From an uncultured Spartobacteria bacterium (lineage in GTDB: Bacteria > Verrucomicrobiota > Verrucomicrobiia > Chthoniobacterales > Chthoniobacteraceae), in NCBI GenBank assembly GCA_903919125.1, contig CAIXGS010000023.1, positions 1-49,315 on the forward strand: a stretch of 49,315 nucleotides of DNA, read 5' to 3'. The notes under the pieces were generated by a model that had not been told where the DNA came from, searched no databases, and saw nothing but the letters and a program-made list of their open reading frames with translations. Below are positions 1-49,315 of this stretch, in pieces (the first letter of the stretch is position 1; the number at the start of each line of letters is the position of its first letter). A program made the position numbers and the translations under genes.

Positions 1-130
1 GTTTGTTTGTTTGTTTTTGTCTTTGTTTGGTTGTTGGTTGTTGGTTGTTGGTTGTTGGTTGTTGGTTGTTGGTTGTTGGTTGTTGGTTGTTGGTTGTTGG
101 TTGTTGGTTGTTGGTTGTTGGTTGTTGGTT
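1..130. repeat. Microsatellite: TTTG run then about 14 TTGTTGG copies
   Basis: Bases 1-29 are a degenerate run of GTTT units. From about 31 to 130 the 7-mer TTGTTGG repeats head to tail without a visible error, giving roughly 14 copies. The array begins at or before the window edge. It lies downstream of the last gene of a minus-strand group (small CPXCG protein) and contains no ORF. Slipped-strand expansion is the usual origin of such arrays; no function can be read from the sequence. Confidence 0.95.
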
Positions 131-131
131 A

Positions 132-195
132 TTAGGGGCTTAGGGGCTTAGGGGCTTAGGGGCTTAGGGGCTTAGGGGCTTAGGGGCTTAGGGGG
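132..195. repeat. Eight tandem copies of the 8-mer TTAGGGGC
   Basis: Units start at 132, 140, 148, 156, 164, 172, 180 and 188; the last reads TTAGGGGG. The plus strand therefore has a run of four or more Gs every 8 bases with 4-base spacers, which satisfies the common G-quadruplex pattern. The array ends exactly where the stop codon of the minus-strand CPXCG gene begins (196-198), so it forms that gene's immediate 3' flank; the transcript there would carry the C-rich complement. A structural role is inference only. Confidence 0.95.
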
Positions 196-34245: not shown

Positions 34246-37200
34246 TTACTCCGTCAGTTTTGAGCAGGAAGCTGGTTGGAAAGTGGAGATGATCTTTGCT
34301 TTGGCGACGTCCTCATTTTCAGAGCGGCCAGAACGCCTTACCGCAAGCGTGCGGCCATCTGGACTCCAGTACAGGCGGTCTGGGATTCCGGACAGACGGC
34401 CGATTGTCTCAACAATGGTGTCGGTGCGTAAGTCCACGATTTTAACCATAAAATCGTCGGAAGCAGTTGCGAGCAAGGGCAGGGTGGGATGCCAAGCTAG
34501 GGCCCTGATTGGCGCGTCGTGCAAACGGATCTCTCTGAGTTCGTCCAGTGATTGGGCGTCTCGAATTCGTACTTTCATATCACTTCCGCCCTCGGCGATC
34601 TGCGTGCCATCTGGGGAAGGAGCGAGGGTTAGGGCGTTGGAAGCGACCAATGTTTTTTCGCAGATGCCATTTTTTGCGTTCCAGAGTTGGATGCAAATTT
34701 GACGTGTCGCAGGAACGCCTTCGCCTTCGTGTGCGTTGACCATTGCGATTTGAGCGACGTAGTCATTGCGGATCCACCGCGGAGTCTCGTCAGTTTCGTT
34801 CAAACGTTCGTGGTCGATTTGATAAACTTCCTGCAACAGGCTGCCGTTTGCTACATTATATAGCCCTTTATCCGTCCAGAGCAATTTACCGTTTGGACTC
34901 ATAGTGCCGTAACGACTCGGGATATTTTTAATGGTTTGAACGGTGCTCAGTTCGTTTTGCTCCACACCAAAAATAGAAGCCTCGCTGGGGACCCCTTCAC
35001 CCTGCGAAAAAACTAGCAGCAGTTTCCCATCAGAGTTGGTCGAAAGTGTGGAGTCTGGAAGAGAGTTAAGAGCGGAAAAAGTGGGCTTAATTTTTGGGTC
35101 CGCCGACTGAAGATCCAGCACGTCTGTGAATCTGGTGCGCCCTTCACGCAAGGGCGACAGCAGAGCGATTCGCGAGGAGTCGCCAAGAAAGGCGAAAGCA
35201 TCTCCACGAAGCTCCGAAGGCTGTAAATACTCGCCCGTGCCGTTCTGGATACGGAGATTCCAAACCTTTATTTTTGCCCCCTGCACTAGCGCGACTTCGT
35301 CAGCGGCAGGCAACGCTACCAACTTCCAGTTGTGCGTTAAGGCGTTTTCAAAAAGTACAGGTTCCTCGCGTACGAGCGTCTGGGTCAGCACGTCCCACGC
35401 TTGGAGAATTGCGGACTTTGGTGATTGATATGAAATTGTGACAAGAATCTTGGCATTAGGTAAATAAGCCAGATCGCTCCAGTTCCGGCTGCCAGCGGGT
35501 AGCTCTCGCTCTCCGAGTACATTCCCGCTTTTCACCTCAATACGGCGCCAAAAACCTGCCTGAAGATACAGTAGGGATTTTGCTTCTGGCATCGCCAAAA
35601 TGCGTCTGCTGCCGTGCAGGTTCTTAGGGGAGGTAAGGTGTCCGTTTTTACTCAGTGAACGCACTTCCTTACCAGTCGCGCCAGACAGCAAAAGCATATC
35701 TCCATTTTGTGGCAGCAGGGCCACGTCCGTTTGCGATGAAAAGGAAGCAAAGGTCCGCCCGTCTCCCTCGCGCTTCCAACGAAGCTGCTCCGTTTTAAGG
35801 TCGAAGAGAAAAACTCCGCCACCCTCGACTGAGCTCATCAAAAGACTCTCGGAATCTGTACTAAACTCCAGCGCAACTTGCTTTACCAAAGGCTTATCTG
35901 CGACCGCCACAGAAAGTGATTTCTCCAGTTGTCCGCTGGTTAAATTCCAGACTTCTACTCGCGCACGTGCGCCGGTTTGAGCCGCCTCTTTGGGTAGTGA
36001 GCGACACAACGCCAAGCGCTTTCTATCAGAGGAGAGAGTCATCCCACTTTTGAGGTCTGACATTTCTACGACGGCGATAAGGGTGCTGGTTCCCTTGACC
36101 ACATCCATCCAGCGCAACTCGCCATTGGTTAGTAGGGTGAGCAGAATGTGAGCTTGGGTCGGGTGGCCAATGCATTCGGCAAACCCGCTAGAGCTGGGTG
36201 CCGAGTGAGACCAATCGGCATTATCCAAGCGCTTGGTGAGATACCACCAGCGGTTGTCTCGCAGATCCTCGGGCACGTGCATGAGGGCATGGCGCATTTC
36301 CTCTCCGGCTACATCGCGTTCGGCGGACTCTGCGATGGCGATTTGAGCGTCTACGGCTGCGCGTCTGGCGATGAGCTTTTCCGCCCGCGCCTGCTCCGCA
36401 TTTTCAAGTGCGAGGCGCGCTTGCTCCGTAGCCCTGAGGGCGTTGGCTTGAGCCTCGTGTTCGCTCTTTGAAAGGCGTACCGCTGAATTCGTCGCGCCCA
36501 GCATTGAGAGCGCAAGGACTACGGAAAGCACTCGGTGCCTTCCTATAAAAAGCCATACGAGCCTTCCAAAAGATGCTGATTCTGCGCTTGTTGCGAAGCC
36601 TCGCAAGTACGCATCAATATCCTCGTTCAATTGCTCGATACTGGCGTAGCGCTTCTTTTTTTTGAGTGCCATTGCTTTCAGCACAACAGCCTGCAAAGCC
36701 TTCGGAACGCTAGAGCGCTTCGCCTCCAGTCCGACGTTGTGCGTGTCGTCCCTCGGCGAAATCAGAGGGTTTAATTCGCCTCTTTTTACTTTGGATAAAA
36801 CCTCCTCCAGAGATTTCCCCTGAACCGGAGCACGCAGTGTTAAACTGGCAAACAAAACAGCGCCCAGAGCATAAATGTCAGTTCGCTCGTCCAGCGCATC
36901 ACCCTCCGCCTGTTCGGGCGACATGTACTGCGGAGTCCCCTCGACGTAACGCGTGTGGGGACTGGATTCCTCGCTGGTTTCGCTTCTGGGGCTAAGCCTC
37001 TGTATTTTTTGAGCCAGTCCCCAGTCCATTACCAACACCTCACCATATTCCCCAACCATCACGTTGTCCGGCTTAATATCCCTGTGCAGATAGCCTTTGG
37101 CGTGCGCGAAGGCGATGGCATGGCAAGCCTTTTGAAAGATCGACAGCAGCCGCTGCAACGTGAATTCAGCCAACGTCTCGGGGGAGCGTGTGCGCAGTTT

Positions 37201-37752
37201 TTCGATAATTGTCTGAAGGGTTTGCCCTCGAATCAGCTTCATCGAATAGAAGGGCTGGCCGTTGAGATCCTCTCCGACATTATGGATTGGGACGATGTTT
37301 GGATGCGCCAAATCGGCCAGCACTTTGGCTTCCTGTAAAAACTGGGATCGCTGCTCTGCATCTCTCGTCCCAACTACCTTGACGGCAACGACTCGATTAA
37401 GTACGGGGTCTTCAGCAGAATAAATGCGCCCCATGCCGCCCCTCGCGATCTCTTTGCCAAGATGGTATGTTTTTTGAACCGATGCCAAATCTGCGCGCGT
37501 TGATTCTTGCGGATTCAGTTGGTAGGCAATCGTCTGCTCGATGAAGTCTGGAACTGCGGTGGGCCTTTTGGGGGAGTCGCCTGGTAAAATCGTGGCTTGA
37601 TCTCCAGGAGGCAGAGTTTCCTGCACTACATTTTGGTCAGACTCCTCCTCCAAATGATTAGTTTCGGATATTCTCCTGCCTGACATCGCGATTTGGTGTT
37701 GAACGGAACGAATAACGTTTTCACCCAATCCTTGGCCTCGCGCAGGCGGCAT
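34246..37752 (-). CDS. Membrane Ser/Thr protein kinase with C-terminal WD-like propeller
   Basis: A 1168-residue kinase from ATG 37752; TTG 37779 and ATG 37686 are alternatives and none has a clear ribosome site. The PknB-type kinase domain (about 95-385) keeps VAVKVV with the catalytic lysine, HRDIKPDNV, MDWG in place of DFG, and GTPQYMSPEQAE. A membrane helix (near 395-420) is followed by an Ala/Glu-rich coiled stretch. From about 495 to the end there are repeated beta-propeller blades (ALAWHPTLPLLATASDD, LYWSPDGRTLAV). This is a characteristic Planctomycetes-Verrucomicrobia architecture: a cytoplasmic kinase coupled to an outward-facing sensing or scaffolding propeller. Substrates are unknown. 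Confidence 0.92.
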   Translation of the reverse strand: MPPARGQGLGENVIRSVQHQIAMSGRRISETNHLEEESDQNVVQETLPPGDQATILPGDSPKRPTAVPDFIEQTIAYQLNPQESTRADLASVQKTYHLGKEIARGGMGRIYSAEDPVLNRVVAVKVVGTRDAEQRSQFLQEAKVLADLAHPNIVPIHNVGEDLNGQPFYSMKLIRGQTLQTIIEKLRTRSPETLAEFTLQRLLSIFQKACHAIAFAHAKGYLHRDIKPDNVMVGEYGEVLVMDWGLAQKIQRLSPRSETSEESSPHTRYVEGTPQYMSPEQAEGDALDERTDIYALGAVLFASLTLRAPVQGKSLEEVLSKVKRGELNPLISPRDDTHNVGLEAKRSSVPKALQAVVLKAMALKKKKRYASIEQLNEDIDAYLRGFATSAESASFGRLVWLFIGRHRVLSVVLALSMLGATNSAVRLSKSEHEAQANALRATEQARLALENAEQARAEKLIARRAAVDAQIAIAESAERDVAGEEMRHALMHVPEDLRDNRWWYLTKRLDNADWSHSAPSSSGFAECIGHPTQAHILLTLLTNGELRWMDVVKGTSTLIAVVEMSDLKSGMTLSSDRKRLALCRSLPKEAAQTGARARVEVWNLTSGQLEKSLSVAVADKPLVKQVALEFSTDSESLLMSSVEGGGVFLFDLKTEQLRWKREGDGRTFASFSSQTDVALLPQNGDMLLLSGATGKEVRSLSKNGHLTSPKNLHGSRRILAMPEAKSLLYLQAGFWRRIEVKSGNVLGERELPAGSRNWSDLAYLPNAKILVTISYQSPKSAILQAWDVLTQTLVREEPVLFENALTHNWKLVALPAADEVALVQGAKIKVWNLRIQNGTGEYLQPSELRGDAFAFLGDSSRIALLSPLREGRTRFTDVLDLQSADPKIKPTFSALNSLPDSTLSTNSDGKLLLVFSQGEGVPSEASIFGVEQNELSTVQTIKNIPSRYGTMSPNGKLLWTDKGLYNVANGSLLQEVYQIDHERLNETDETPRWIRNDYVAQIAMVNAHEGEGVPATRQICIQLWNAKNGICEKTLVASNALTLAPSPDGTQIAEGGSDMKVRIRDAQSLDELREIRLHDAPIRALAWHPTLPLLATASDDFMVKIVDLRTDTIVETIGRLSGIPDRLYWSPDGRTLAVRRSGRSENEDVAKAKIISTFQPASCSKLTE

Positions 37753-38039
37753 CAACGCTGGGGGGCGCTTTGGATGCAACGGCCAAAAACACTGCTGGCT
37801 TACTGGTGAGGATATTACGCTTCAGAACCAAATGCAGCAAGGCGATGTTGCATCAATGTGAATGCGTCACTTGGAACGCTCCATCAGGGTCGTGTAAATG
37901 AGGACAGTTTGGCGTTGGGCGCGCAAAATTCTAAGAGTCGGCGCGTTGAAGATGTCTAGGCGATGTCGGCCTGACTCTGCATGAGGCGCTTTTCAGCTTT
38001 GTTAAATGTTCTAAGTGCCAAATCTTGAAGAAAACTGGT
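37753..38039. other. 287-bp gap upstream of the kinase gene
   Basis: This non-coding stretch runs from the kinase start to the left copy of the 137-bp repeat. I see no gene, RNA or clear promoter pair. Short frames on the minus strand that read from the repeat into it (37931-38152 and 37956-38267) have no conserved content within this part. Confidence 0.5.
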
Positions 38040-38176
38040 TCTTCTCTCCCGGGAACGCGGAGCCCTAGCTCCGCTTTGACGCCCCAAAAGCTCGGACAGG
38101 CATTGCGGAGCTGGGGCTCCGCGCTCCCAGGTGCTGAGGTCTCTTGAATCATCCAGAAAACTTAAATAGGTGGTAT
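38040..38176 (+). repeat. Left copy of a 137-bp inverted repeat with REP-like hairpins
   Basis: Identical over all 137 bases to the reverse complement of 49179-49315. It contains two palindromes with the same 7-bp arms GCGGAGC/GCTCCGC: 38057-38074 (loop CCTA) and 38105-38122 (loop TGGG). The 24-base blocks around them (from 38051 and up to 38128) are near-exact reverse complements of each other, so the element is a REP doublet (BIME-like). Its inner edge at 38176 abuts the SMP-30 remnant. No transposase gene is in the window. The outer boundary could lie further left, since the second copy is cut by the window end. Confidence 0.93.
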
Positions 38177-38410
38177 GAGAACTCGCTATGTACCGACGAT
38201 TGTTTTTGGGCCCTCCAAACGTCAAATTCGCACACCGCTCCGGCAGACGAATGAAACCAATTGGCACGCCCTCAGCATTAAAAAATCTTCACTCCGTCGG
38301 GCGACTGCAATTTGCGCCTGGACTGCCATTGCTGCCCCAGCCGCACCAAAGATTCCCTCCCGTATCAACCTTGAAGCCATAGATGGAAGCGGGACCGTTG
38401 GGAACCCAGA
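38177..38410 (-). pseudogene. SMP-30/gluconolactonase C-terminal remnant, frameshifted
   Basis: On the minus strand one frame gives GPASIYGFKVDTGGNLWCGWG, and after a shift the next gives DGVKIF; after a second shift at the T run (38285-38280, six bases where five would keep frame) NAEGVPIGFIRLPERCANL and TFGGPKNNR follow. Together these match the order of conserved C-terminal blocks of SMP-30/gluconolactonase enzymes, calcium-dependent lactonases and sugar-acid hydrolases. About 80 residues are left, with no N-terminal part and no start. The 3' end runs directly into the 137-bp repeat, which replaces the normal C-terminus. It lies 43 bp after the DUF1552 gene. Confidence 0.75.
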
Positions 38411-38452
38411 TGCGCGGGATACCATGACAAAAAGCGCAGCTAAAAATGCCGA

Positions 38453-39784
38453 CTAAATTTCCTCAAGCATCGACTTCGCATCACCGAAAGCCTTCGGGCG
38501 GACGTCCATTTTGTCCATCATCGACATAAACAGGCGGCAAAGTTGGCGCTCCGGTTTGTCCTTATAGTCTAACACGCGACCGCCTTTTATACGGCCGCCC
38601 GCTCCACCGAGCAGTATGACGGGGAGCTGATCGTTGTCGTGCTTGGCACCGGCCATCATGCTGGAGCAATGCAGGAGCATCGTGTTGTCGAGCAGAGTGC
38701 GCGGGCCTTCCTGAATGGCATCCATTTTCCGAGCGAGATAAGCGGTCTGCTCCAGAAAAAATTGATTTACCACAAGCCAGTCAGCCGCGTCTGAATGCGA
38801 AAGCAAATGATGAATCATGTAGTCAATTCCGCTGCCCACCTGCTGAATACTCGAGAGGTTAGGAAAACGAAGCGCACTATGGTCGTTGTTGAGCTTCAGC
38901 GTCGTGATCCGCGTGGTATCCGTTTGGAAACCAAGCACCAAGATATCGCACATGAGTCGCATGTGTTCAGCAATATCCTGAGGGATTCCATCGGCAGGGC
39001 GCGGAATGTTCGGTTTCTCCAGCGTCGGTCGCCAGCCCTGCAATTCGCCTCGCTTGCCGGCGTTTTCAATGCGCTTCTCCACGTCCCGCACAGACTCCAG
39101 ATACTCGTCGAGTTTGCTTTGATCCGCCCGGCTAATATCGCGCCGTAAATCCTGCGCGTCAGCTAGTACCGCATCGAGAACGCTTTTATCTCCAAGTGCA
39201 ACCTCGTTTTTAAAGAGTCTGTCAAAGGCGAGAGCAGGGTAAATTTCCAGCGGCGTCGGGGTGGTCGGTGAGCTCCAAGAAATGTGGGAGCTGTAGAGCA
39301 TCGAATAATTCTTGTGCACCGAGGGGTTAGCTAGCTCACAGCCGAGGACAAGACTAGGAACCTTTGTGGACCGGCCGTAAGTCTGAGCCAGAAGTTGATC
39401 CATGCTCGTGCCGGAACGGATTTCGCCCCCAGAGGCGATGGGCGCCCCAGAGAGCATGTTCCCAGTCTGGGAACTGTGGATATTCCCCTTCCTCGCTTCC
39501 TCGTGATAAAGCCCGCGCAGGAAGACGAGTTTCTCACGAAAATCCCCCAGCGGTTGGAGCACTTTACCTAACTCCATGGCACTCCCCTCGCCCTTTGCCC
39601 ACCATTCCTTGGAGTGAAAGCCATTTCCAGAAAACAACACGGCGAGCCTCACGGGCGCTTCACTCGCAGGTTTGTTACGGGTGGGGTCATCCCCCCAAAC
39701 ATTGTAGGATTCCAACCAGGGAAGAGCCATGCTAACGCCCAGACCCCGAAGAAAGGCGCGGCGCGAGAAGTGGTGTGTTTTCAT
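38453..39784 (-). CDS. DUF1552 protein, Tat-exported
   Basis: A 443-residue protein of the DUF1552 family, almost confined to Planctomycetes and Verrucomicrobia and usually encoded next to DUF1592/cytochrome-like proteins, as here. From ATG 39784 it has a twin-arginine signal (SRRAFLRGLGVSMALPWLE). The family blocks FSGNGFHSKEWWAKGEG, LGCELANPSVHKNYSMLYSS and MLLHCSSMMAGAKHDND are present. The function is unknown; export in folded form suggests a cofactor or metal. It begins 32 bp after the DUF1592 gene and is the last intact gene of the cluster. Confidence 0.92.
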   Translation of the reverse strand: MKTHHFSRRAFLRGLGVSMALPWLESYNVWGDDPTRNKPASEAPVRLAVLFSGNGFHSKEWWAKGEGSAMELGKVLQPLGDFREKLVFLRGLYHEEARKGNIHSSQTGNMLSGAPIASGGEIRSGTSMDQLLAQTYGRSTKVPSLVLGCELANPSVHKNYSMLYSSHISWSSPTTPTPLEIYPALAFDRLFKNEVALGDKSVLDAVLADAQDLRRDISRADQSKLDEYLESVRDVEKRIENAGKRGELQGWRPTLEKPNIPRPADGIPQDIAEHMRLMCDILVLGFQTDTTRITTLKLNNDHSALRFPNLSSIQQVGSGIDYMIHHLLSHSDAADWLVVNQFFLEQTAYLARKMDAIQEGPRTLLDNTMLLHCSSMMAGAKHDNDQLPVILLGGAGGRIKGGRVLDYKDKPERQLCRLFMSMMDKMDVRPKAFGDAKSMLEEI

Positions 39785-39816
39785 TTTTGGGTGATGGCGA
39801 GGAGGTGATAACAAAA

Positions 39817-42800
39817 CTAATGATTCGAGACGCTTGCGAAGTCCTTTCCGCGAACCTCCCGAAACTGTGGGCTGGTTACAATGAGTCTGAACGCATTTTC
39901 GAGCTTATATTCATGTGTTTTTAACTCATTAACCATTTCCGTGATAAGCGGCTTATCGGAAAGTCGGACGCTGCGACCCAAAGCATACCCCAGCAACTTC
40001 CGGCAGAACTGCCTCAGGAAGTCGTCGCTGCGCTGACTCAAAAGCGCCTCCCTAAGACCGACCAAGCCAACAATCGGGGTCCCGTCCGGAAGTGTGGTAT
40101 GGGTATCGATTGGGAGACCTGCGGAGTCGCTGCTCCGCGCGCGGCCAATAGCGTCAAATCCTTCCAGAGCAAACCCGAAGGGATCGATTCGCTTATGGCA
40201 ATTTGCGCAAACAGCGTCCGAGCTGTGTTTTTCGATCAGCTCCCGTTCAGTAAGTCCCTGTGGCGCTTCCTCCGGTAAAATGGGCACACCCTTGGGTGGG
40301 CGCGGCAACTTATCGCCAAGAACCACCTCGCTCAACCAGTTCCCCCTGAGGATAGGGCTAGTCCGCGACGCTCCACTCTGTTTGGCCAGCGTGCTGGCGA
40401 AGCCAAGGATGCCACCGCGCCCCTTCTCTCGCAAACCCTCAACCCGTTGCCAGTCTTCGCCCTGAATCGTGATCCCGTAATGCGCTGCCAGTGTCCCATC
40501 GACGAAGGTATGGTCCGCATCGAGCAAGGAGAGCACCGAACGGTTTTCTGTAAATAAATCTATGAAAAAGCGAACGGCTTCTTCCTGCATGGCGCCCCTG
40601 ACCGTTTTGAAGGTTGGAAAATGGCGTTCACTTTTTTCGTCAAGCGTCTCGATATCGCGAATGTGCAGCCATTGGCAGCCAAATTCTGTAGCGAGCCTCC
40701 GAACACGCGCATCCTTGAGCATCCGCTGGGTTTGTTCGAACAAGACCCTCGGATCATTGAGTGTTCCGTTTCTTGCTGTCGCGAGAAGAGCCTCATCTGG
40801 TGGCCCTGACCAAAGGAAATAACTCAACCGCGTGGCAAGTTCCCAAGGATTCACCGGAGCCGCCTTTAAGCCGGGAACGGGCCGTTCTCCCCTGTAAAGA
40901 AATGCTGGGGCGACGAGAGTTCGCGCCAAGAGCATTTTAATCGCCACAGCGTGCGGAATACCTTCGTTTCGAAATTTTTGGTAAAGTGAACGAAGCTCGC
41001 CCTGTTCTCGGGCGGCAAGCGGGCGGCGCCAGGCACGCGCTGCGAAATCCATAGCAGCCTGTACGTGCACAGGTTCGGCCTCCACGAGACGTTGCTTAAA
41101 GGTAGCTGCCGCCTTTTGGATGGGCTCACGCAACGGGGCCAGACGTTTGTCGCCATTTGGCTTATCGGGACCGTCCTGCGTGGAGAACTGCCAGATTTGT
41201 TCAAAAGCACCAACGGATGTCAGCGCATCTTGACTCACGAAATGGAGCTCGTCCCATAAGCGATCTATCTGATTCTTTTGATCCGCATCAAGCATCAGCT
41301 CCGAGAGCGCCTGATCCTCCCGATGAAACAAGGTGAGCGTCACGACTTCATCGGAAGGCACAATCTTCGCGTAACAAAGAGCCGCAGGGAATAGTTTGCG
41401 AAAATCAGCAAAAGCAGCCTCAAAACGAGCCCGTGCAGGGCTAGCGTCATGAACGAGAATAGGCGTTTCAAAAGCAACCGTTGTGGCGCTGTTGGTCCAT
41501 GCTCCACTCTGTGTTTGCGCCTTGGAGGCAGTGTATTGAAGGCCACTGTGCTGCGAGGGCCGGGTCGTGGAGGCCTGCATTTGTACGCTGGCCTCAGCGC
41601 CGCTCTGTGGATGGAGACGCCCTGTCGCCACAAACTCGGCCCCCTCGATTAATTGCGCAGGGAGCCGCACTTCAATGAGGTTCGGAGCCCGCACACACAA
41701 CGCGCCCGGCGGCACAACTTCCCCCTTGGGGTGCTTTCCAAAACGGGATTGATCCAGGCCATGGGGAGAAGGCGAGCCGTCATCACTAGCTGGTGCTGAA
41801 TAAAGAATCGAGCCAAGCAAGGGGCCGTTTAAGGCGAGCATCTGAGCGTAAAGCGCCTTCTCCAGACTGCCGGGAGCGAGGGTGGATATCTCTTTTTGCA
41901 ACAGTGTTCGAAGTTGCTGCGCAATCTCAGCCCGCACGAGCGCGTCTTTGGAATGACGCCATTCCGATAAAAGTGATCCCTTTGGAATCACGCCCGAAAC
42001 TCCCCGCTGCTCGGGTTCTCCAAAAAAATGCCACACGTCTTTATTGCCGTGACTGTCCGCATGAGGGTTACCCGCGAGGATATTTGGGGAGAGTTCCTTA
42101 GCGGCATTCCATTCCGTTTTCCCATCGCTAATGGAGAGTTCGATTCCAGTAAGATCGCAAGCGTGGTCGCCATTCTTTGGACCGATGACAATTGCAATCG
42201 CGTCCCCTTTGAGCACTTGGATGCCTTCATGCTTTCCTAATTCAACGAGCTTGGCGCCATCGCTTTCTCCCCTTGCCAAAGTTTCCAGAGTGTTTCCCTT
42301 CCGCAATTGAAGCTCCCATGTGATTCCATTTCCACAGCCCGTGTGCACGTCTTGGACGCTCCCAGTGATTTGCAAGGTTCCTTCGATGGGACTTTTCCAC
42401 GCAATGACCGCCGCAAGCTTTGCTGAGGGATGAGCCGCGATGCTGTAAGGCTTCATCGTCCCTGGCAGACGCACCGTTTGATCCGAGGAGTTTGCTTGAA
42501 TGCTGAACGCTGCGTCCCCTTTCCAACCTTTGACAAAGTTGTAGTCAGGCGTGCTCTCCATTTTAGTGGTGAGTAACGGGCCCAAATTCACCCCTCCAGC
42601 GGTCCCAATACCCAAATAGCGCAGCCAATCTGTGAGTAGCGCCTCCGAAACACCGTGTCTGACCGCCAGCTTTGCGACATCCGTACGGCTCTTTTCAAAC
42701 TCCGCCTCGTGGGCAGCCGCAAGGCAACTTTCCAGGGAGGCAACCACTTCCAACCGACGGGCCGCGAGTTGCTGCAAGGCGGCACGCACGTCTTTAAGGC

Positions 42801-43989
42801 GTAAGTCAGGGCGCCCCGCGACGACGAGCCTGGCGTCTTCCCAAATCGCAAAGTCCTGCGCGTTCCCATCTCCTGCATCGCCCGTGGAGAGATAGAGAGT
42901 GAGATCGCTCCCATCAACCGGCGGGGCGAGCTTCAGTTTAATTTCATGCTTCGCCGTGAGTGGGGTGATCGGCTCCATCCAAGACTTGGGACCATCCACT
43001 TTTCCAAGGTGACCAATACTGTTGAGTTTCCACAACGATTGCTGCCACGGTTCGATGTCAGCGGCTTGCAATGTTCCCGCAGCGTATTTGGCTCTCAGCG
43101 TATCGAGAAGTTGGGAAGGCTGTTTTCCATTGAGGGCCGCGCGCAGGGTCTCGAGATATCGGGCACTCAAACCAGACGCATTTTCCTTTCCCTGAAGGGC
43201 TGCAAGATATTTAGCCAAGGGGATGCGCCCCCCAGAGCCGGTATTTAATTTAATCCCCTGCTGCACAACCTCAGTGGCAGTTCCATCGGTTGAAAAACGC
43301 GAGTAGAACGCTCGGATTTTTGCGAGGATTTCATTAGTCCAATCACGCGCAGAGACGTTTTCAGAAAACCAGATTCCCTCCGGAGTGAGCACCGCATGGG
43401 AAGCGACGTTCTTCGCGGCGTCCAAATATTTCCCCAACAACGAGGGAGACATCACCAAGGCTGCCCCTACGTTTGTGAAGCCTTCGCCTGCGGCACCGTC
43501 GACGGGAAACTCTTTGGCAGGATCCAAAGTGGTCACCCCAGTGAGGTCTCTCACCGAATAGGTGTATTCCATGTTGGAGAGGCGTCGTAAAACAACCGGA
43601 CCAGGATCACCAGCACTCGCGAAGGCGATTTCATCAAGGGTGCCCTGCAACCAGTGAGTGAGGATCCGAAGCTGTTCAGGAGTAGGCTTCGGCTTGTCCC
43701 TTGGTGGCATTTCCTTATCGCGAATCTGCTCCAAAGCATGTTCCCAGACAATGGGATCAGCCTTAATCTCGGCCAAGTCATGGAAGCGCTCTAAGTCCAA
43801 GTCGCCCTTCTGCTTTTCAGTGGAATGGCAGGTGATGCAGTACTCTTTTAGAATGGGTTGGACGTTATCCCTAAATTCATCCTTGGCGGACTTTACCTCG
43901 CCGCGTGCCACGGATGACAAAAAGAGCCACGCAAGACCAAGAGCGCAGTGGAGCCGCTCATTTCCATATCTAAAAGGGTGCAGGCGCAT
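39817..43989 (-). CDS. Giant PSC/DUF1587-1592-1588-1585 cytochrome-like protein
   Basis: A 1390-residue secreted protein. After a signal peptide (about 1-30) there is a planctomycete-type cytochrome c domain with haem motif CITCH at 51-55, then DUF1587 (RRLSNMEYTYSVRDLTG, near 130). The middle of about 600 residues is long and contains beta-rich segments resembling carbohydrate-binding modules. DUF1592 follows (ELATRLSYFLWSGPPDEALL), then DUF1588 with a second haem-type motif CANCH at 1261-1265, and a C-terminal DUF1585 (FRLIVTSPQF). It is probably an extracytoplasmic redox protein acting with DUF1552. It starts at ATG 43989, 20 bp after the GntR gene. Confidence 0.92.
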   Translation of the reverse strand: MRLHPFRYGNERLHCALGLAWLFLSSVARGEVKSAKDEFRDNVQPILKEYCITCHSTEKQKGDLDLERFHDLAEIKADPIVWEHALEQIRDKEMPPRDKPKPTPEQLRILTHWLQGTLDEIAFASAGDPGPVVLRRLSNMEYTYSVRDLTGVTTLDPAKEFPVDGAAGEGFTNVGAALVMSPSLLGKYLDAAKNVASHAVLTPEGIWFSENVSARDWTNEILAKIRAFYSRFSTDGTATEVVQQGIKLNTGSGGRIPLAKYLAALQGKENASGLSARYLETLRAALNGKQPSQLLDTLRAKYAAGTLQAADIEPWQQSLWKLNSIGHLGKVDGPKSWMEPITPLTAKHEIKLKLAPPVDGSDLTLYLSTGDAGDGNAQDFAIWEDARLVVAGRPDLRLKDVRAALQQLAARRLEVVASLESCLAAAHEAEFEKSRTDVAKLAVRHGVSEALLTDWLRYLGIGTAGGVNLGPLLTTKMESTPDYNFVKGWKGDAAFSIQANSSDQTVRLPGTMKPYSIAAHPSAKLAAVIAWKSPIEGTLQITGSVQDVHTGCGNGITWELQLRKGNTLETLARGESDGAKLVELGKHEGIQVLKGDAIAIVIGPKNGDHACDLTGIELSISDGKTEWNAAKELSPNILAGNPHADSHGNKDVWHFFGEPEQRGVSGVIPKGSLLSEWRHSKDALVRAEIAQQLRTLLQKEISTLAPGSLEKALYAQMLALNGPLLGSILYSAPASDDGSPSPHGLDQSRFGKHPKGEVVPPGALCVRAPNLIEVRLPAQLIEGAEFVATGRLHPQSGAEASVQMQASTTRPSQHSGLQYTASKAQTQSGAWTNSATTVAFETPILVHDASPARARFEAAFADFRKLFPAALCYAKIVPSDEVVTLTLFHREDQALSELMLDADQKNQIDRLWDELHFVSQDALTSVGAFEQIWQFSTQDGPDKPNGDKRLAPLREPIQKAAATFKQRLVEAEPVHVQAAMDFAARAWRRPLAAREQGELRSLYQKFRNEGIPHAVAIKMLLARTLVAPAFLYRGERPVPGLKAAPVNPWELATRLSYFLWSGPPDEALLATARNGTLNDPRVLFEQTQRMLKDARVRRLATEFGCQWLHIRDIETLDEKSERHFPTFKTVRGAMQEEAVRFFIDLFTENRSVLSLLDADHTFVDGTLAAHYGITIQGEDWQRVEGLREKGRGGILGFASTLAKQSGASRTSPILRGNWLSEVVLGDKLPRPPKGVPILPEEAPQGLTERELIEKHSSDAVCANCHKRIDPFGFALEGFDAIGRARSSDSAGLPIDTHTTLPDGTPIVGLVGLREALLSQRSDDFLRQFCRKLLGYALGRSVRLSDKPLITEMVNELKTHEYKLENAFRLIVTSPQFREVRGKDFASVSNH

Positions 43990-44009
43990 GAGAAAATTCC
44001 TCCAAGCGT

Positions 44010-44702
44010 TTAGGCCATCGCGCCGTCAAGACCCTGATTGTACATCGGCGCCCATTCCATGGAATCTTCGATATGCGCAGCCATGGTTTGAGCCGCTTTC
44101 TCCGGACTCCCCGATGCCAGCGCTGCCAATAAGCGGCGATGCGCACTAACGGTTATTTGGCGAGGCTCGAAGGCGAGGCTTTGTTGATTGCGATGCAGTT
44201 TCGCAAGGCACATCTCAAATTGGCGGCGAATGCTCTGCCAGAGTGTCAGGACACGCTTATTATCTCCACGCAGCATCACATACTCATGCAGATCGATATC
44301 CAGACGACTCAGCTCCGCAAGGGTCGATGCATTGACTTGAGCCTTAAGGTTCACCTCGATCCACGCCGTATCTCCTGAAGTCCAGCGCGCGGCAGCGCGA
44401 CGCGCCCCCATACTTTCCAGTGCAACTCGCGCGTCACGAATTTCAAGGAAGTCGCTTTCCACAAGAATTCGCACTCTTGTGCGTCCGGTAGCCTGAAATT
44501 CCACAAGTCCCTCGCTCTCCAACTCAATCAAAGCCTCTCGGATCGGTGCACGACTAAAACCAAACCGCTTCGCAAGAACGGGCTCAGCAAGTGAGACTCC
44601 AGGTTCGAGTTTTCCCGAAATGATCTCTGCGCGCAGCGAGGAAACGACCTCGAAGGCGAGATTTCTGCGGGCGAGCGAGACGGAAGGGATAAGTGAAGTC
44701 AT
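44010..44702 (-). CDS. GntR-family transcriptional regulator, FCD subfamily
   Basis: A 230-residue regulator from ATG 44702. Residues about 14-78 form the GntR winged helix-turn-helix (RFGFSRAPIREALIELESEGLV). The rest is an all-helical FCD effector domain with the metal-binding Asp/His set: LDIDLHEYV, SAHRRLL and AAHIED. NanR, the sialic acid regulator of E. coli, belongs to this subfamily, and the gene sits next to sialic-acid-type genes, so a 2-keto-acid or sialic acid effector is likely but inferred. A perfect inverted repeat lies 16 bp upstream of the start and is the expected autoregulatory site. The giant PSC gene follows after 20 bp. Confidence 0.92.
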   Translation of the reverse strand: MTSLIPSVSLARRNLAFEVVSSLRAEIISGKLEPGVSLAEPVLAKRFGFSRAPIREALIELESEGLVEFQATGRTRVRILVESDFLEIRDARVALESMGARRAAARWTSGDTAWIEVNLKAQVNASTLAELSRLDIDLHEYVMLRGDNKRVLTLWQSIRRQFEMCLAKLHRNQQSLAFEPRQITVSAHRRLLAALASGSPEKAAQTMAAHIEDSMEWAPMYNQGLDGAMA

Positions 44703-44718
44703 TCGAGGAATCAAAAAT

Positions 44719-44753
44719 TGTCGACACTTTTAAACAACCCAAAAGTGTCGACA
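44719..44753 (-). promoter_or_regulatory. Perfect 13-bp inverted repeat, likely GntR operator
   Basis: TGTCGACACTTTT (44719-44731) and AAAAGTGTCGACA (44741-44753) are exact reverse complements separated by 9 bp. Each arm also contains the self-complementary TGTCGACA, with centres 27 bp apart. The site ends 16 bp before the gntR start. FCD-type GntR proteins bind short palindromes of TNGTNNNACNA type, which the TTGTCGACACTT arm resembles. Read as RNA on the minus strand it also forms a 13-bp hairpin followed by ATTTTT, so an attenuator or terminator after the sialidase gene is a second possibility. Confidence 0.75.
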
Positions 44754-44847
44754 GTCTTTGGCCTATTTAACCACTCCGCTCAAAAATCGCTAAAAAGTGA
44801 GATTTCCCTGCCCGCCGCGTCCCCCCAGAAATCCCCTCACCCACAAC

Positions 44848-46065
44848 TTACGGCGCAGTTAGCCACTCCAGATTGAAGCGCGCGAGGGTGAGTCGCCCTC
44901 CTGCGAAGGCAGCCAGCCCGGTAGCCAGTCCCTGAACTTCACCACTGCGTCCATAGAAGCAAAGAATCGTGCCGGAATGAGTCACGGCTATGTCTGAATA
45001 CATGCTCGCACCCGGTTCGATGGTTTTGTTGACGGGCCACGTTTGGCCTTCGTCTCGACTGATTTTCACCGAAACGTTTTTGCGGTCGCGATTCTTGCCC
45101 GGCTCAGCCTTGCCCTTTGCCTTCTCCAAATTGTGCGGATTGGAGAAGAGAATGAGGTTCTGATCGCCAAAGGCGTATCTCACAATTCCTGCCATACAGA
45201 TGGGTTCGAGGAGGGCGTCATCAAACTTTGGTGTGGTCCAAGCAGTGGCACCGTCAGGACTGGTGGTAATGAGGCGACGATGTGCTTTGGATTGGCTACG
45301 GACGTTGAGCATGACGCGCCCATCGTTTAGCTCAATAGCGACGGTCTCATTCGGGTCGTCCCACTCTTCTGTGGCGGGAACGGCGATGTCGCCCGCGTGC
45401 CACGATTTGCCGGAGTCGTCGCTGTAAATGGTTGCAGAGACGCTTGGGTGATGCCCGTTTGAACCTGTCCCCGTAGACAACCAGACGGGTACCACGAGGC
45501 GACCGGTTTTTAGTTGGATGCCGTGATTTGGCCCTGTTGCGAGCACCTTCCAATCGTAGTTCTTTTTGAAGCCCTCGAACGCGCTGGTGATCTCAATGGG
45601 GGTACTCCACGAAACTCCGTCATCATCGCTTCGTTGATAAAAAGCGCGCATGTACTCGAGGCAAAACAGCATGTGCACCGCGCCATTTTTGTCCGCAATG
45701 AGTACAGGATTGTTGTACGTCACATCGTTTGGATCCACATTCTTCATCTGTAACGCAGACGGGTTTTTCGCTTTCGGGCCGGGCACATCAGCGATGCTTT
45801 TCGGGGCACTCCAAGTTTTGCCCTCATCCGTGCTTCGCCGCAGCAGGATGCGAATATCATCCCAATCCGAGACGCCTGAGGGACGTTTCCGCGCCTCGCA
45901 CCAGGCGAGCACCGTCCCCTTAGCGGTCACGACAATTCCAGGAATGTGATAGACGTTGTATGCGGGATCTTCGCCACTCACGAAGAGATCTTGTTTTGTG
46001 AGGAGCGGTTCGGCGGCTTGAACGGTGACGCAGGAAAGCAGTGCGAGGAGAAGAAATGTGCGCAT
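44848..46065 (-). CDS. Secreted BNR sialidase-like protein with His in the Arg triad
   Basis: A 405-residue six-bladed propeller with a signal peptide (about 1-18) from ATG 46065; ATG 46092, which overlaps the upstream stop codon, is an alternative. Four Asp boxes are visible (STDEGKTW, SDDDGVSW, SDDSGKSW, SRDEGQTW). The acid/base Asp region SDWDDI, the ETVAIELNDGRVML block with Glu and the second Arg, and the Tyr nucleophile region SMYSDIAV are kept. The first Arg of the triad, in the normal YRIP motif, is replaced by His40 (YHIPG). It may act on a different glycan or have lost activity. It follows the RraA gene with overlapping or near-adjacent coding ends. Confidence 0.88.
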   Translation of the reverse strand: MRTFLLLALLSCVTVQAAEPLLTKQDLFVSGEDPAYNVYHIPGIVVTAKGTVLAWCEARKRPSGVSDWDDIRILLRRSTDEGKTWSAPKSIADVPGPKAKNPSALQMKNVDPNDVTYNNPVLIADKNGAVHMLFCLEYMRAFYQRSDDDGVSWSTPIEITSAFEGFKKNYDWKVLATGPNHGIQLKTGRLVVPVWLSTGTGSNGHHPSVSATIYSDDSGKSWHAGDIAVPATEEWDDPNETVAIELNDGRVMLNVRSQSKAHRRLITTSPDGATAWTTPKFDDALLEPICMAGIVRYAFGDQNLILFSNPHNLEKAKGKAEPGKNRDRKNVSVKISRDEGQTWPVNKTIEPGASMYSDIAVTHSGTILCFYGRSGEVQGLATGLAAFAGGRLTLARFNLEWLTAP

Positions 46066-46085
46066 AGAAAGGAGATTATTGAAGG

Positions 46086-46829
46086 CTACCATTCACCGCG
46101 GCGCTGAAACTTAGCCTTAGCGTTTTTACCGAATTGCGCCCCAGCATTGGATAAACTGACGAGAATCTCTTCCGTAGAATGACCCGCCGCGCCTCTTGCC
46201 GCAGGAATGACAGTCTGACATTCGTTGGCATCCATAAAGCGTGCTGCCTCGAGAATCATCGGCTCCTCCTCCGGCGAGAGGACGATAAACCCGTGCTTGT
46301 CGGCATGGATAAGGTCCCCAGGAGAAACCCTTCGCCCGAAGACCTCCACCTCACAGTTCCAGCGCACGGGATGCACATGTGCATGACCGACACAAAGCCG
46401 CTTAGCGAGGGCCTTAAACCCCGCATTGGTCATCTCGTCCACATCCCTAATTGCGCCATCCACAATCGTGCCCACGCAACCCAAAGCGCGGTGCATGTTG
46501 CTACTGACCTCGCCCCAGAAAGAGCCGATGGTGCGCGGTTTATCGAGATCCTGAATGCACACAATTTTCGGCCCCGGAATCCCTGCAATATAGCGGCGAT
46601 ATTCGTCCCACGCATTCGGATTAACTTCGCGGTGCGCCTTATTACTCGGCTCAATGACGACCGTTACAGCGTAGCCGACCATCGGCCCCATTTGCGGCAT
46701 GAAGTCGCGGGTTTCCTCTAGGTTGAAGGCATCAGCGGCGGGATCACGTTTGGTGATCTGCTCCCAACCATTATAGATTGTCGGAGTGTTCCAACGTTTG
46801 AGTTGAAGAAGTTCAGAATGAGGAAGCAT
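46086..46829 (-). CDS. RraA-family aldolase/decarboxylase-like protein
   Basis: A 247-residue protein of the RraA/HMG-aldolase family. The conserved block LGCVGTIVDGAIRDVDEM, with the metal-binding Asp, and WGEVSSNMHRALG are present, with GDLIHADKHGFIVL towards the C-terminus. Members are class II aldolases acting on 4-hydroxy-4-methyl-2-oxoglutarate or related 2-keto acids, or the inhibitor of RNase E. The catalytic residues and the neighbours (sialic acid lyase) favour a 2-keto-acid role. The length exceeds the usual 160-200 residues because of an N-terminal extension of about 60. The start is ATG 46829; a 111-bp gap separates it from nanA. Confidence 0.85.
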   Translation of the reverse strand: MLPHSELLQLKRWNTPTIYNGWEQITKRDPAADAFNLEETRDFMPQMGPMVGYAVTVVIEPSNKAHREVNPNAWDEYRRYIAGIPGPKIVCIQDLDKPRTIGSFWGEVSSNMHRALGCVGTIVDGAIRDVDEMTNAGFKALAKRLCVGHAHVHPVRWNCEVEVFGRRVSPGDLIHADKHGFIVLSPEEEPMILEAARFMDANECQTVIPAARGAAGHSTEEILVSLSNAGAQFGKNAKAKFQRRGEW

Positions 46830-46940
46830 GGCGTTAAGAAGTATTCGTGGTGTTCCTAGTGGTATAGATTTTTGACTGTGAAGTGATGATACTAGATGCC
46901 GCCGAAAGGTATGCGCTGTCTGACAAAAAACGGGAACTTC

Positions 46941-47858
46941 TCAAGCTAAGGAACAGAAATCAAAAAAGCCTGCGCCCTCCAATTCCGAGCGAAGTTCCCG
47001 TTCACGAATTTCCGACGGACTCCGAAGCGGCAACCGGACTGAGCCACAATCCAGACCAATAAAACGCATCATCGCCTTTCCAGCCGCCAATCCTCCAAAC
47101 TTCACAAAAATAGCGATCATTGCATTTGCACGCGCTTGATGAGCCCGGGCGCAGTCGAGATCTCCCCGCTCAAACGCCTCAATGATACGGTGATAAATGG
47201 GCGCGGCAAAGTTGTAGGTGCTGCCGATCGCTCCTTTTGCACCCAAAGAAAGGCCCGCTAAAAGAATTTCGTCCCTACCGAATACCACATCAAAACGCCC
47301 CTCCTGCATTCGGACGCATTCCGCAAAATCCATAAGATTCTCAAATGTGAATTTCACTCCTGCTAGATTTGGAATCCGCTCCTGACCCAGCCTTAAAAAC
47401 TCCGCTGCAGGTAGTTGCACTCCAGTCATAGAAGGAATTTGATAATAATAGAAGGGCAGCGCAGGCGCGCTTGAAGCGACTTCCGCACAGAACGCCACGA
47501 GATCTTCCTGATTCGCCGGCTTGAAAAAGAACGGAGCATAACAACCCACGCCTTGCGCCCCGATTTGTTGGGCGTGTTGAGCGAGTGCTTTGGAATCCGG
47601 CAGAGCGGTATGACCTACGTGGACGATGACCCGCAGATTTGCGCCAGCGACTTCGCACCACCGTTTTGCTACCAGCATTCTTTCAGCAACGCTCAACGAA
47701 GCACCTTCCCCCGTCGTGCCGCAAACAAAAGCGCCAGTGACGCCATTTTTGATAAGCGAGTGCGCCTGCGCCTCAATTCGATCAATGTTCAAGCTGCCGT
47801 CGGAATGAAATGCGACGAAGGGAGCGGCTATGAGGCCGTTGAGTCTTGTATAATTCAT
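46941..47858 (-). CDS. nanA: N-acetylneuraminate lyase
   Basis: A class I aldolase that splits N-acetylneuraminate into N-acetylmannosamine and pyruvate. The 305-residue DapA-fold protein keeps GTTGEG at 47-52, the catalytic Tyr139 in YYYQIP, and the Schiff-base Lys169 in AGVKFTFENLMDF. It also has GRDE near 194 and GSTYN at 212-216, which distinguish sialic acid lyases from dihydrodipicolinate synthases. The stretch around Lys169 is closer to animal-type NPL than to E. coli NanA. ATG 47858 overlaps a TGA in another frame (ATGA), see findings. It is followed by the RraA gene. Confidence 0.92.
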   Translation of the reverse strand: MNYTRLNGLIAAPFVAFHSDGSLNIDRIEAQAHSLIKNGVTGAFVCGTTGEGASLSVAERMLVAKRWCEVAGANLRVIVHVGHTALPDSKALAQHAQQIGAQGVGCYAPFFFKPANQEDLVAFCAEVASSAPALPFYYYQIPSMTGVQLPAAEFLRLGQERIPNLAGVKFTFENLMDFAECVRMQEGRFDVVFGRDEILLAGLSLGAKGAIGSTYNFAAPIYHRIIEAFERGDLDCARAHQARANAMIAIFVKFGGLAAGKAMMRFIGLDCGSVRLPLRSPSEIRERELRSELEGAGFFDFCSLA

Positions 47859-47933
47859 ATTCTCTTTAACTTTAACTGATCGCCAACTTCAAGCGTCCCG
47901 CTGGTCACAGCGCCAATCGAAGCGAGCGTATTT

Positions 47934-49034
47934 TCACCGAGAATTTCCCTGCTCAAAAGACCAAACCTCGGGAGTGCGCACTCTCGGGCGAACTTCACCG
48001 CTGGGTATCACCACGCGATTTTTCCACAAAACCGTCGGCGCAGTCGCTCTCGAAAATGGAATCGAACCGAGATTTTTCCAAGTATCGCTATTCATCTCAT
48101 AGCAAAGTACATCCTGCGGAAAACCCGGATGCTTTTCTATCGGAGAAAAGTCCACGTTCGCGCCATCGTCTCCTGTGAAAACAAGCAACGAGGATTGCCC
48201 AAAAGTGGGCGCAGGCGTGGGAGCCGCCACCGCTGCCCGAGGCAGATCTGCGATGCGCCTCCAGCCGCGTTCCGGGGTAAAACGATAGGCGTCCCGAAGA
48301 TATTCCCGAACGACTTTCCCTTCGCTATTCTTCAATAATCTGGTGCCGCTGATTAGAAAAAACGAACCATCCTGTACACCCGCGACGGCCAGCATCCGCT
48401 CGGGTCCCGGCCAAGGCTCAAGCGCCTTCCAAACGGGCGCGGGAGACGTGAGGTCAAGGGCCCAAAACGTTCGCATTGCCTGCTCGGAAGTGGGCGTCTC
48501 AAGACCGCCAGCCACATAAATGGTGTTCCCAAGAAGAGCTCCGCAAGCTTGCGCGCAAGACGTTGGGAGTGCGGGAAGCTGAGTGGTTCGGACTGCGCCG
48601 TTCTGCCATTGGAGTTCAAACACTTCGGAAAAATGGCGAGTTGCATCACTCCCGCCCGCGCAGATTAACCCATGTTTTGAGGTGATCGAGACTCCGTATC
48701 CAATGGGGCGTGGCAACTCAAATCCACCGCTCCATTTTCCATCCGGTTCCAAAAGAACGAACAGACTGGAGTACCACTTTTTTTGGATCGGATTGTCCCA
48801 GCGCTGACCGATGATGTTAGCGCCTCCGGCGACCAGTAAAGCGCCGTTACTGACACCGGCAAAAGACCCTGCAAATCCCTCTTGATCAGGGATCGGAGGC
48901 AATTGTTTCCAAGAAAACGCAGAATTCATCGGCTCAAATTTCGGAGTGGTTTCGGCAGCGCCTTCGCTTGGTGAACAAAGTACGAAGAGAAATATCGAGA
49001 GCCATGGCATACGTGGAAGTTGAATGGCATTCAT
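47934..49034 (-). CDS. Secreted Kelch-repeat protein, NanM-like
   Basis: A 366-residue exported Kelch propeller with a signal peptide (about 1-27, ending near SEGAAE). Kelch blades are seen as SFAGVSNGALLVAGGANI, LLGNTIYVAGGLETPTSEQ and later segments, and the protein ends with VVIPSGEVRPRVRTPEVW. This layout matches NanM, the periplasmic N-acetylneuraminate mutarotase that converts released alpha-sialic acid to the beta form. The adjacent nanA supports the role. It is the first gene of the minus-strand cluster; the right copy of the 137-bp repeat lies 144 bp upstream. Confidence 0.87.
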   Translation of the reverse strand: MNAIQLPRMPWLSIFLFVLCSPSEGAAETTPKFEPMNSAFSWKQLPPIPDQEGFAGSFAGVSNGALLVAGGANIIGQRWDNPIQKKWYSSLFVLLEPDGKWSGGFELPRPIGYGVSITSKHGLICAGGSDATRHFSEVFELQWQNGAVRTTQLPALPTSCAQACGALLGNTIYVAGGLETPTSEQAMRTFWALDLTSPAPVWKALEPWPGPERMLAVAGVQDGSFFLISGTRLLKNSEGKVVREYLRDAYRFTPERGWRRIADLPRAAVAAPTPAPTFGQSSLLVFTGDDGANVDFSPIEKHPGFPQDVLCYEMNSDTWKNLGSIPFSRATAPTVLWKNRVVIPSGEVRPRVRTPEVWSFEQGNSR

Positions 49035-49109
49035 GGCGAGTTGCTCGGGGGATCAACAGGAGTTTGCAGAGAAATTGTAGGGAGCAAAGGCGGAAGATGC
49101 ATCGCATCA

Positions 49110-49139
49110 AGATAACGAGGCGATTTTCACTCCAGACAA
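49110..49139 (-). promoter_or_regulatory. Candidate promoter of the sialic-acid-type operon
   Basis: On the minus strand TTGTCT (49139-49134), an 18-bp spacer and TTATCT (49115-49110) form a moderate sigma-70 match. Transcription would start near 49103, about 70 nt before the Kelch gene. The only other space upstream is short and ends in the repeat at 49179. Confidence 0.35.
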
Positions 49140-49178
49140 GCAAGTGTTGGTGAATTAAACCCGCTACCCTCGGCACTT

Positions 49179-49315
49179 ATACCACCTATTTAAGTTTTCT
49201 GGATGATTCAAGAGACCTCAGCACCTGGGAGCGCGGAGCCCCAGCTCCGCAATGCCTGTCCGAGCTTTTGGGGCGTCAAAGCGGAGCTAGGGCTCCGCGT
49301 TCCCGGGAGAGAAGA
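49179..49315 (-). repeat. Right copy of the 137-bp inverted repeat (cut by window end)
   Basis: Exact reverse complement of 38040-38176, with the same two GCGGAGC/GCTCCGC hairpins. The window ends inside or exactly at the end of this copy, so its full length is not known. The sequences diverge immediately on the cluster side (at 49178 versus 38177), which marks the inner boundary of the element. Confidence 0.93.

Follow-up and report, generated by a model that had tools for sequence, protein, structure and literature searches.

The window, the whole stretch of 49,315 nucleotides analysed here, carries on its minus strand the end of a gluconolactonase-type gene that runs up to the edge of a short repeat and stops there. 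The locus raises the question of how the gene was broken and what became of its other parts. A sequence-only reading had proposed that either the arrival of the repeat or a deletion at its edge destroyed the gene. The features that bear on this question are collected in Table 1.

Table 1. Features of the window around the interrupted SMP-30/SGL gene (G000, own genome; G009, sister genome)
Feature	Position	Strand	Evidence
Protein kinase/WD40 gene, far side of the MITE	34246..37779	-	Profile match; comparison with G009
Spurious 103-aa frame, final 30 residues of the remnant running on into the MITE	37956..38267	-	ORF reading
MITE copy, 162 bp, two REP-like hairpins, imperfect terminal inverted repeats	38015..38176	+	Copy survey, target duplications, fold
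TGA target duplication, remnant side; partner at end of G000:C38	38176..38178	+	Duplication survey, flank comparison
C-terminal fragment of SMP-30/SGL (gluconolactonase-type) pseudogene	38177..38401	-	Pfam SGL, blastn, third-position mismatch bias
Frameshift 2, one base gained relative to intact relatives, inside T6 run	38280..38285	-	Sequence and pairwise alignments
Frameshift 1, one base lost relative to intact relatives	38301..38308 (approximate)	-	Pairwise alignments to intact genes
DUF1552 (HXXSHH) gene adjoining the remnant	38453..39814	-	Profile match; G009 orthologue
Second MITE copy, inverted, cut by contig end; inner flank begins TAAGTGCC	49176..49315	-	Copy comparison

The SMP-30 remnant

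The remnant is 225 bp long, and its homology starts about 52 bases beyond the stop codon of the DUF1552 gene. Its read-through matches the end of the Pfam SGL profile (PF08450, E 3e-5, profile positions 188-246 of 246), and 222 bases, from 38401 to 38180, are aligned by blastn with an intact betaproteobacterial gene (E 6e-24). The two remnant frames, combined with a piece of the gene end from contig C38 that is described below, score 28.0 bits, above the Pfam SGL gathering cut-off of 26.3. The translation reads NGPASIYGFKVDTGGNLWCGWGSNGSPGAN / LQSPDGVKIF / NAEGVPIGFIRLPERCANLTFGGPKNNRRYIASSH, each slash being a frameshift.

When the remnant is compared with eight intact relatives, the mismatches are found mostly at third codon positions (about 50-60%, versus 10-20% at positions 1 and 2). 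In one example the pairwise alignments give 37/72 at the third position and 10/74 and 10/73 at the other two. For most of its history the remnant thus evolved under coding constraint. The profile match, the blastn match and this bias together bear out the assignment of the sequence to the SMP-30 family as a pseudogene that the sequence-only reading had made, and the pairwise alignments place its frameshifts, including the one in a six-base T run. That reading had the match carried by three frames, of which two in fact carry it. It was right that the match ends at the edge of the repeat, which interrupts the gene, and that a short odd frame reported across the repeat is explained by this junction (Table 1).

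The 5' part of the gene is gone. The first 275 or so codons are absent from the remnant, and a search elsewhere in the same genome did not find them. Instead of a complete beta-propeller enzyme, the last 90 or so codons alone survive. The loss of about 275 codons makes the gene a pseudogene whether or not the frameshifts are real, and the locus is a remnant, not a functional member of the family. It has in common with betaproteobacterial SMP-30 genes, for example that of Pandoraea cepalis (L137), the C-terminal blocks VDTxGNLWCGWGSNG, GFIRLPERCANLTFGGPKNNR and SSHSLYxLYVEAxGAV. Unlike the Pandoraea gene, it is reduced to some 90 codons with two frameshifts, has its last two blocks separated by a MITE and encodes no working enzyme.

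Origin of the gene

The top matches to the remnant come from Pandoraea cepalis (76% protein identity) and from Burkholderiales (74-75%), among the 80 matches listed in a search of 84,980 species with exact peptide patterns, by which a closer relative from the host lineage could be missed. The best match among 147 relatives is 55% identical, and the best in the phylum, for which 387 genomes were sampled, is 54-57%. Two trees, calculated from the whole alignment and from its C-terminal part, both place the remnant among proteobacterial proteins, without any sampled member of its own phylum; they rest on about 90 residues, and the nodes around the remnant are weakly supported. As the betaproteobacterial relatives are the closest (76% versus 54-57% in the phylum), the remnant is probably the relic of a horizontally acquired gene of betaproteobacterial type. 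The transfer would have preceded the loss of function.

The gene could instead have been a native paralogue, inherited vertically within the phylum, given the intact SMP-30 genes found in the genome (C38:56358 and C76:186178). However, these are 43-48% identical to the remnant, compared with 76% for the betaproteobacterial genes, and a native origin is improbable.

The 162-bp MITE

The repeat is longer than the 137 bp first reported for it (Table 1). It is a short element without coding capacity, bounded by the imperfect terminal inverted repeats ATACCAAATCTTGAAGAAAACTGG / ATACCACCTATTTAAGTTTTCTGG, with the ends ATACCA...TGGTAT, and its two REP-like hairpins fold together (z -4.0). Copies are dispersed over about 40 places in the genome, many of them at contig ends. 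Matching 3-bp target duplications, nearly always TNA, flank 24 of the 33 copies that have both ends; 7.0 are expected when the flanks are shuffled, and none of 20,000 shuffles reached 24. Duplications of the 3-bp TNA type are known from some groups of the IS5 family, such as IS1031, and the MITE may belong with that family. It resembles other bacterial MITEs with TNA duplications in being short and non-coding and in having terminal inverted repeats and dozens of near-identical copies, whereas its two REP-like hairpins, which serve as a group II intron target, set it apart from them.

The young copies are 99-100% identical to one another, showing that the insertion is recent. Diverged copies and shorter versions of 78-97 bp are found in genomes of the same genus, and the sister genome G009 has 80 matches to the terminal repeats. 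No autonomous IS with the ends of the MITE was seen among the loci read, and none of the plasmid records searched contained the MITE. An older and a younger copy are joined in tandem at TGATACC in one place (L025, G000:C17:8343-8629).

The two copies in the window are inverted relative to each other and identical over 140 bp. In the copy that adjoins the remnant, the left end is altered, having GTGCCA in place of ATACCA. This copy is flanked by AAG on the left and TGA on the right, without a target duplication across the join.

The missing end of the gene

Within the window the gene halts at the MITE, and a continuation looked for on the left side of the element was not found, as would be expected if a deletion at the MITE edge had removed the end of the gene. 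However, a search of the MITE flanks with an intact protein traced the last 14 residues to the end of contig C38, beside the left end of a MITE. The flank there reads TCA-TTCGCTTTACGGGCTTTACGTTGAAGCCTACGGCGCTGTGTACTGA and extends the ...SSH of the remnant as SLYGLYVEAYGAVY followed by a stop codon, the Pandoraea counterpart being SLYSLYVEAEGAV. The joined site, ...NNRRYIASSH-SLYGLYVEAYGAVY-stop, is in frame, and the piece on C38 consists of the last 45 or so bases before C38:118172. It is the only one of 29 distinct MITE left flanks that matches the gene end, which it resembles at 34/42 bases, compared with 21 for the next best.

The target duplication also matches, as TGA/TGA, once the remnant side in the window is paired with the C38 end. 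TGA is present at none of the other loose right ends of young, intron-free copies. Since the C38 flank is homologous, stays in frame to the stop codon and has the matching duplication, the insertion is, as judged from these sequence comparisons, a clean one, situated in the His codon that precedes the stop by 15 codons, with no deletion at the edge. Loss of the gene end by deletion is thus very improbable; of the two causes first proposed, interruption by the element is upheld and deletion is not. The arrival of the MITE need not have been what killed the gene, because it cost the last 15 codons, while the loss of about 275 codons and the two frameshifts lie elsewhere.

The window join and the 11-kb segment

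In the window contig the remnant is continued, across the MITE, by an unrelated left flank that carries the protein kinase/WD40 gene. Located here between carA and the MITE, this gene is absent beside carA in G009, where the carA side (to 34095) runs on 90 bp later into a block found here at C12:122817-120005. The G009 orthologue of the DUF1552 gene (95%) lies on a separate contig and is not followed by an SMP-30 gene; the DNA homology to that side ends at 38454. An ancestral place for SMP-30 in the DUF1552 cluster at this site was considered and rejected, as other genes come after DUF1552 in both G009 and G001. No synteny with G009 was found for the C38 end or for the upstream side of the DUF1552 cluster. 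The gene content of the window includes DUF1552, DUF1587-1592 and a planctomycete-type cytochrome, which points to Verrucomicrobiota or Planctomycetota as the probable phylum. The contig starts with a tandem array of the GGTTGTT type (window 1-149).

The two MITE copies, in opposite orientation, bracket the 11-kb segment from 38177 to 49175, which contains the genes DUF1592, DUF1552, GntR, BNR, RraA-like, DHDPS-like and kelch. On the kinase side the flanking sequence is TTCTAAGTGCC; the far copy has TAAGTGCC as its inner flank, a sequence also present beside the copy at 38015. This pairing of the flanks at 38015 and 49176 depends on 8 matching bp, about 3 of them informative, and weakly suggests that both flanks once belonged to a single insertion, one on each side. 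If so, the 11-kb segment is now turned around with respect to the arrangement that gives both insertions their duplications.

The present arrangement could have arisen in two ways, both of them sub-cases of the history preferred below. There is roughly an even chance that the contig was wrongly joined inside the MITE, leaving the C38 end as the only real neighbour of the remnant. The exact MITE stretch shared is 159 bp, longer than the overlap of about 140 bp at which other contigs break. The join also lacks the target duplication that the fully assembled young copies at C38:74301 and C72:52227 possess, and the C38 end would otherwise have no TGA partner at all. On the other hand, the altered left end, GTGCCA, is unique and must derive from reads; moreover, about 14 other loose right flanks were available to the assembler, which nevertheless made this join.

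Alternatively, recombination between the inverted copies may have flipped the segment in some or all members of the population, a possible though somewhat doubtful course of events. The identical copies bracket exactly this segment, TAAGTGCC is present at both of the predicted original flanks, and an inversion explains both the absent duplication at the join and the partner on C38. However, orientation ambiguity in short-read assembly yields the same pattern. Mis-assembly is placed somewhat ahead of a real inversion because the 159-bp exact stretch exceeds the overlaps of about 140 bp at which contigs break. It is unlikely that MITE recombination makes the segment, with its DUF1592/DUF1552 pair and its RraA-like, DHDPS-like and kelch genes, invertible in nature. 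As the join across the MITE is not the original neighbourhood of the remnant, the event does not cleanly date the DUF1552 cluster, contrary to what the sequence-only reading had supposed.

Group II introns in the MITE hairpins

All ten group II intron 5' ends detected in the genome lie in the hairpins of MITE copies. The insertion point is GCGGAGCTRGGGC^TCCGCG, giving two possible sites per MITE, one in each hairpin, on opposite strands. The intron ends lie at contig ends of this genome (for example 5' ends at L238-L247 and 3' ends at L224, L230 and L235-L237), and an Rfam group II domain match accompanies the 3' ends that were read in MITE copies. The MITE appears to be distributing landing sites for the group II intron.

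REP elements are known targets of IS elements and occasionally of group II introns, two of the nine group II introns of P. putida KT2440 being so placed (PMC1525189). There, as here, mobile elements enter short palindromes, but the palindromes described here are themselves borne by a mobile element and are used by every one of the intron 5' ends detected. A MITE that interrupts a metabolic gene has been described in hupL of Candidatus Thiomargarita nelsonii, and the same paper describes a MITE associated with a group I intron (PMC4853749). In that organism a MITE lies inside the intron, whereas here the introns lie inside the MITE; furthermore, unlike hupL, the SMP-30 gene may already have been dead when it was interrupted. 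Nothing closer than these two reports was found in the literature on the combination of MITE, interrupted gene and intron.

Proposed history and its meaning

The best explanation overall, and a highly probable one, is a combination of transfer, decay and splitting of the gene by the MITE, with the 11-kb segment most likely in the opposite orientation. An SMP-30/SGL gene of betaproteobacterial type would have entered an ancestor of the genome by horizontal transfer and then decayed to a pseudogene, of which the loss of the first 275 or so codons and the two frameshifts in the rest are directly observed. Insertion of the MITE in the His codon, with duplication of TCA (plus-strand TGA), split the gene into the part at 38401-38177 and the piece at the C38 end, as the reading frame, the homology and the duplication attest. 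The segment 38177-49175 is most likely opposite in orientation to its state at the time of insertion, through the action of either the assembler or recombination between copies.

The locus shows that a short-read contig can disguise a clean transposon insertion as a deletion. It also shows that the true partner can be recovered across contigs from a target duplication together with a reading frame. Were the segment invertible, the SMP-30 pseudogene would be alternately rejoined to and parted from its own end. The MITE entered a gene that had itself probably been transferred, and MITE hairpins in turn became landing sites for group II introns; the spread of intron target sites by a MITE would merit separate study.
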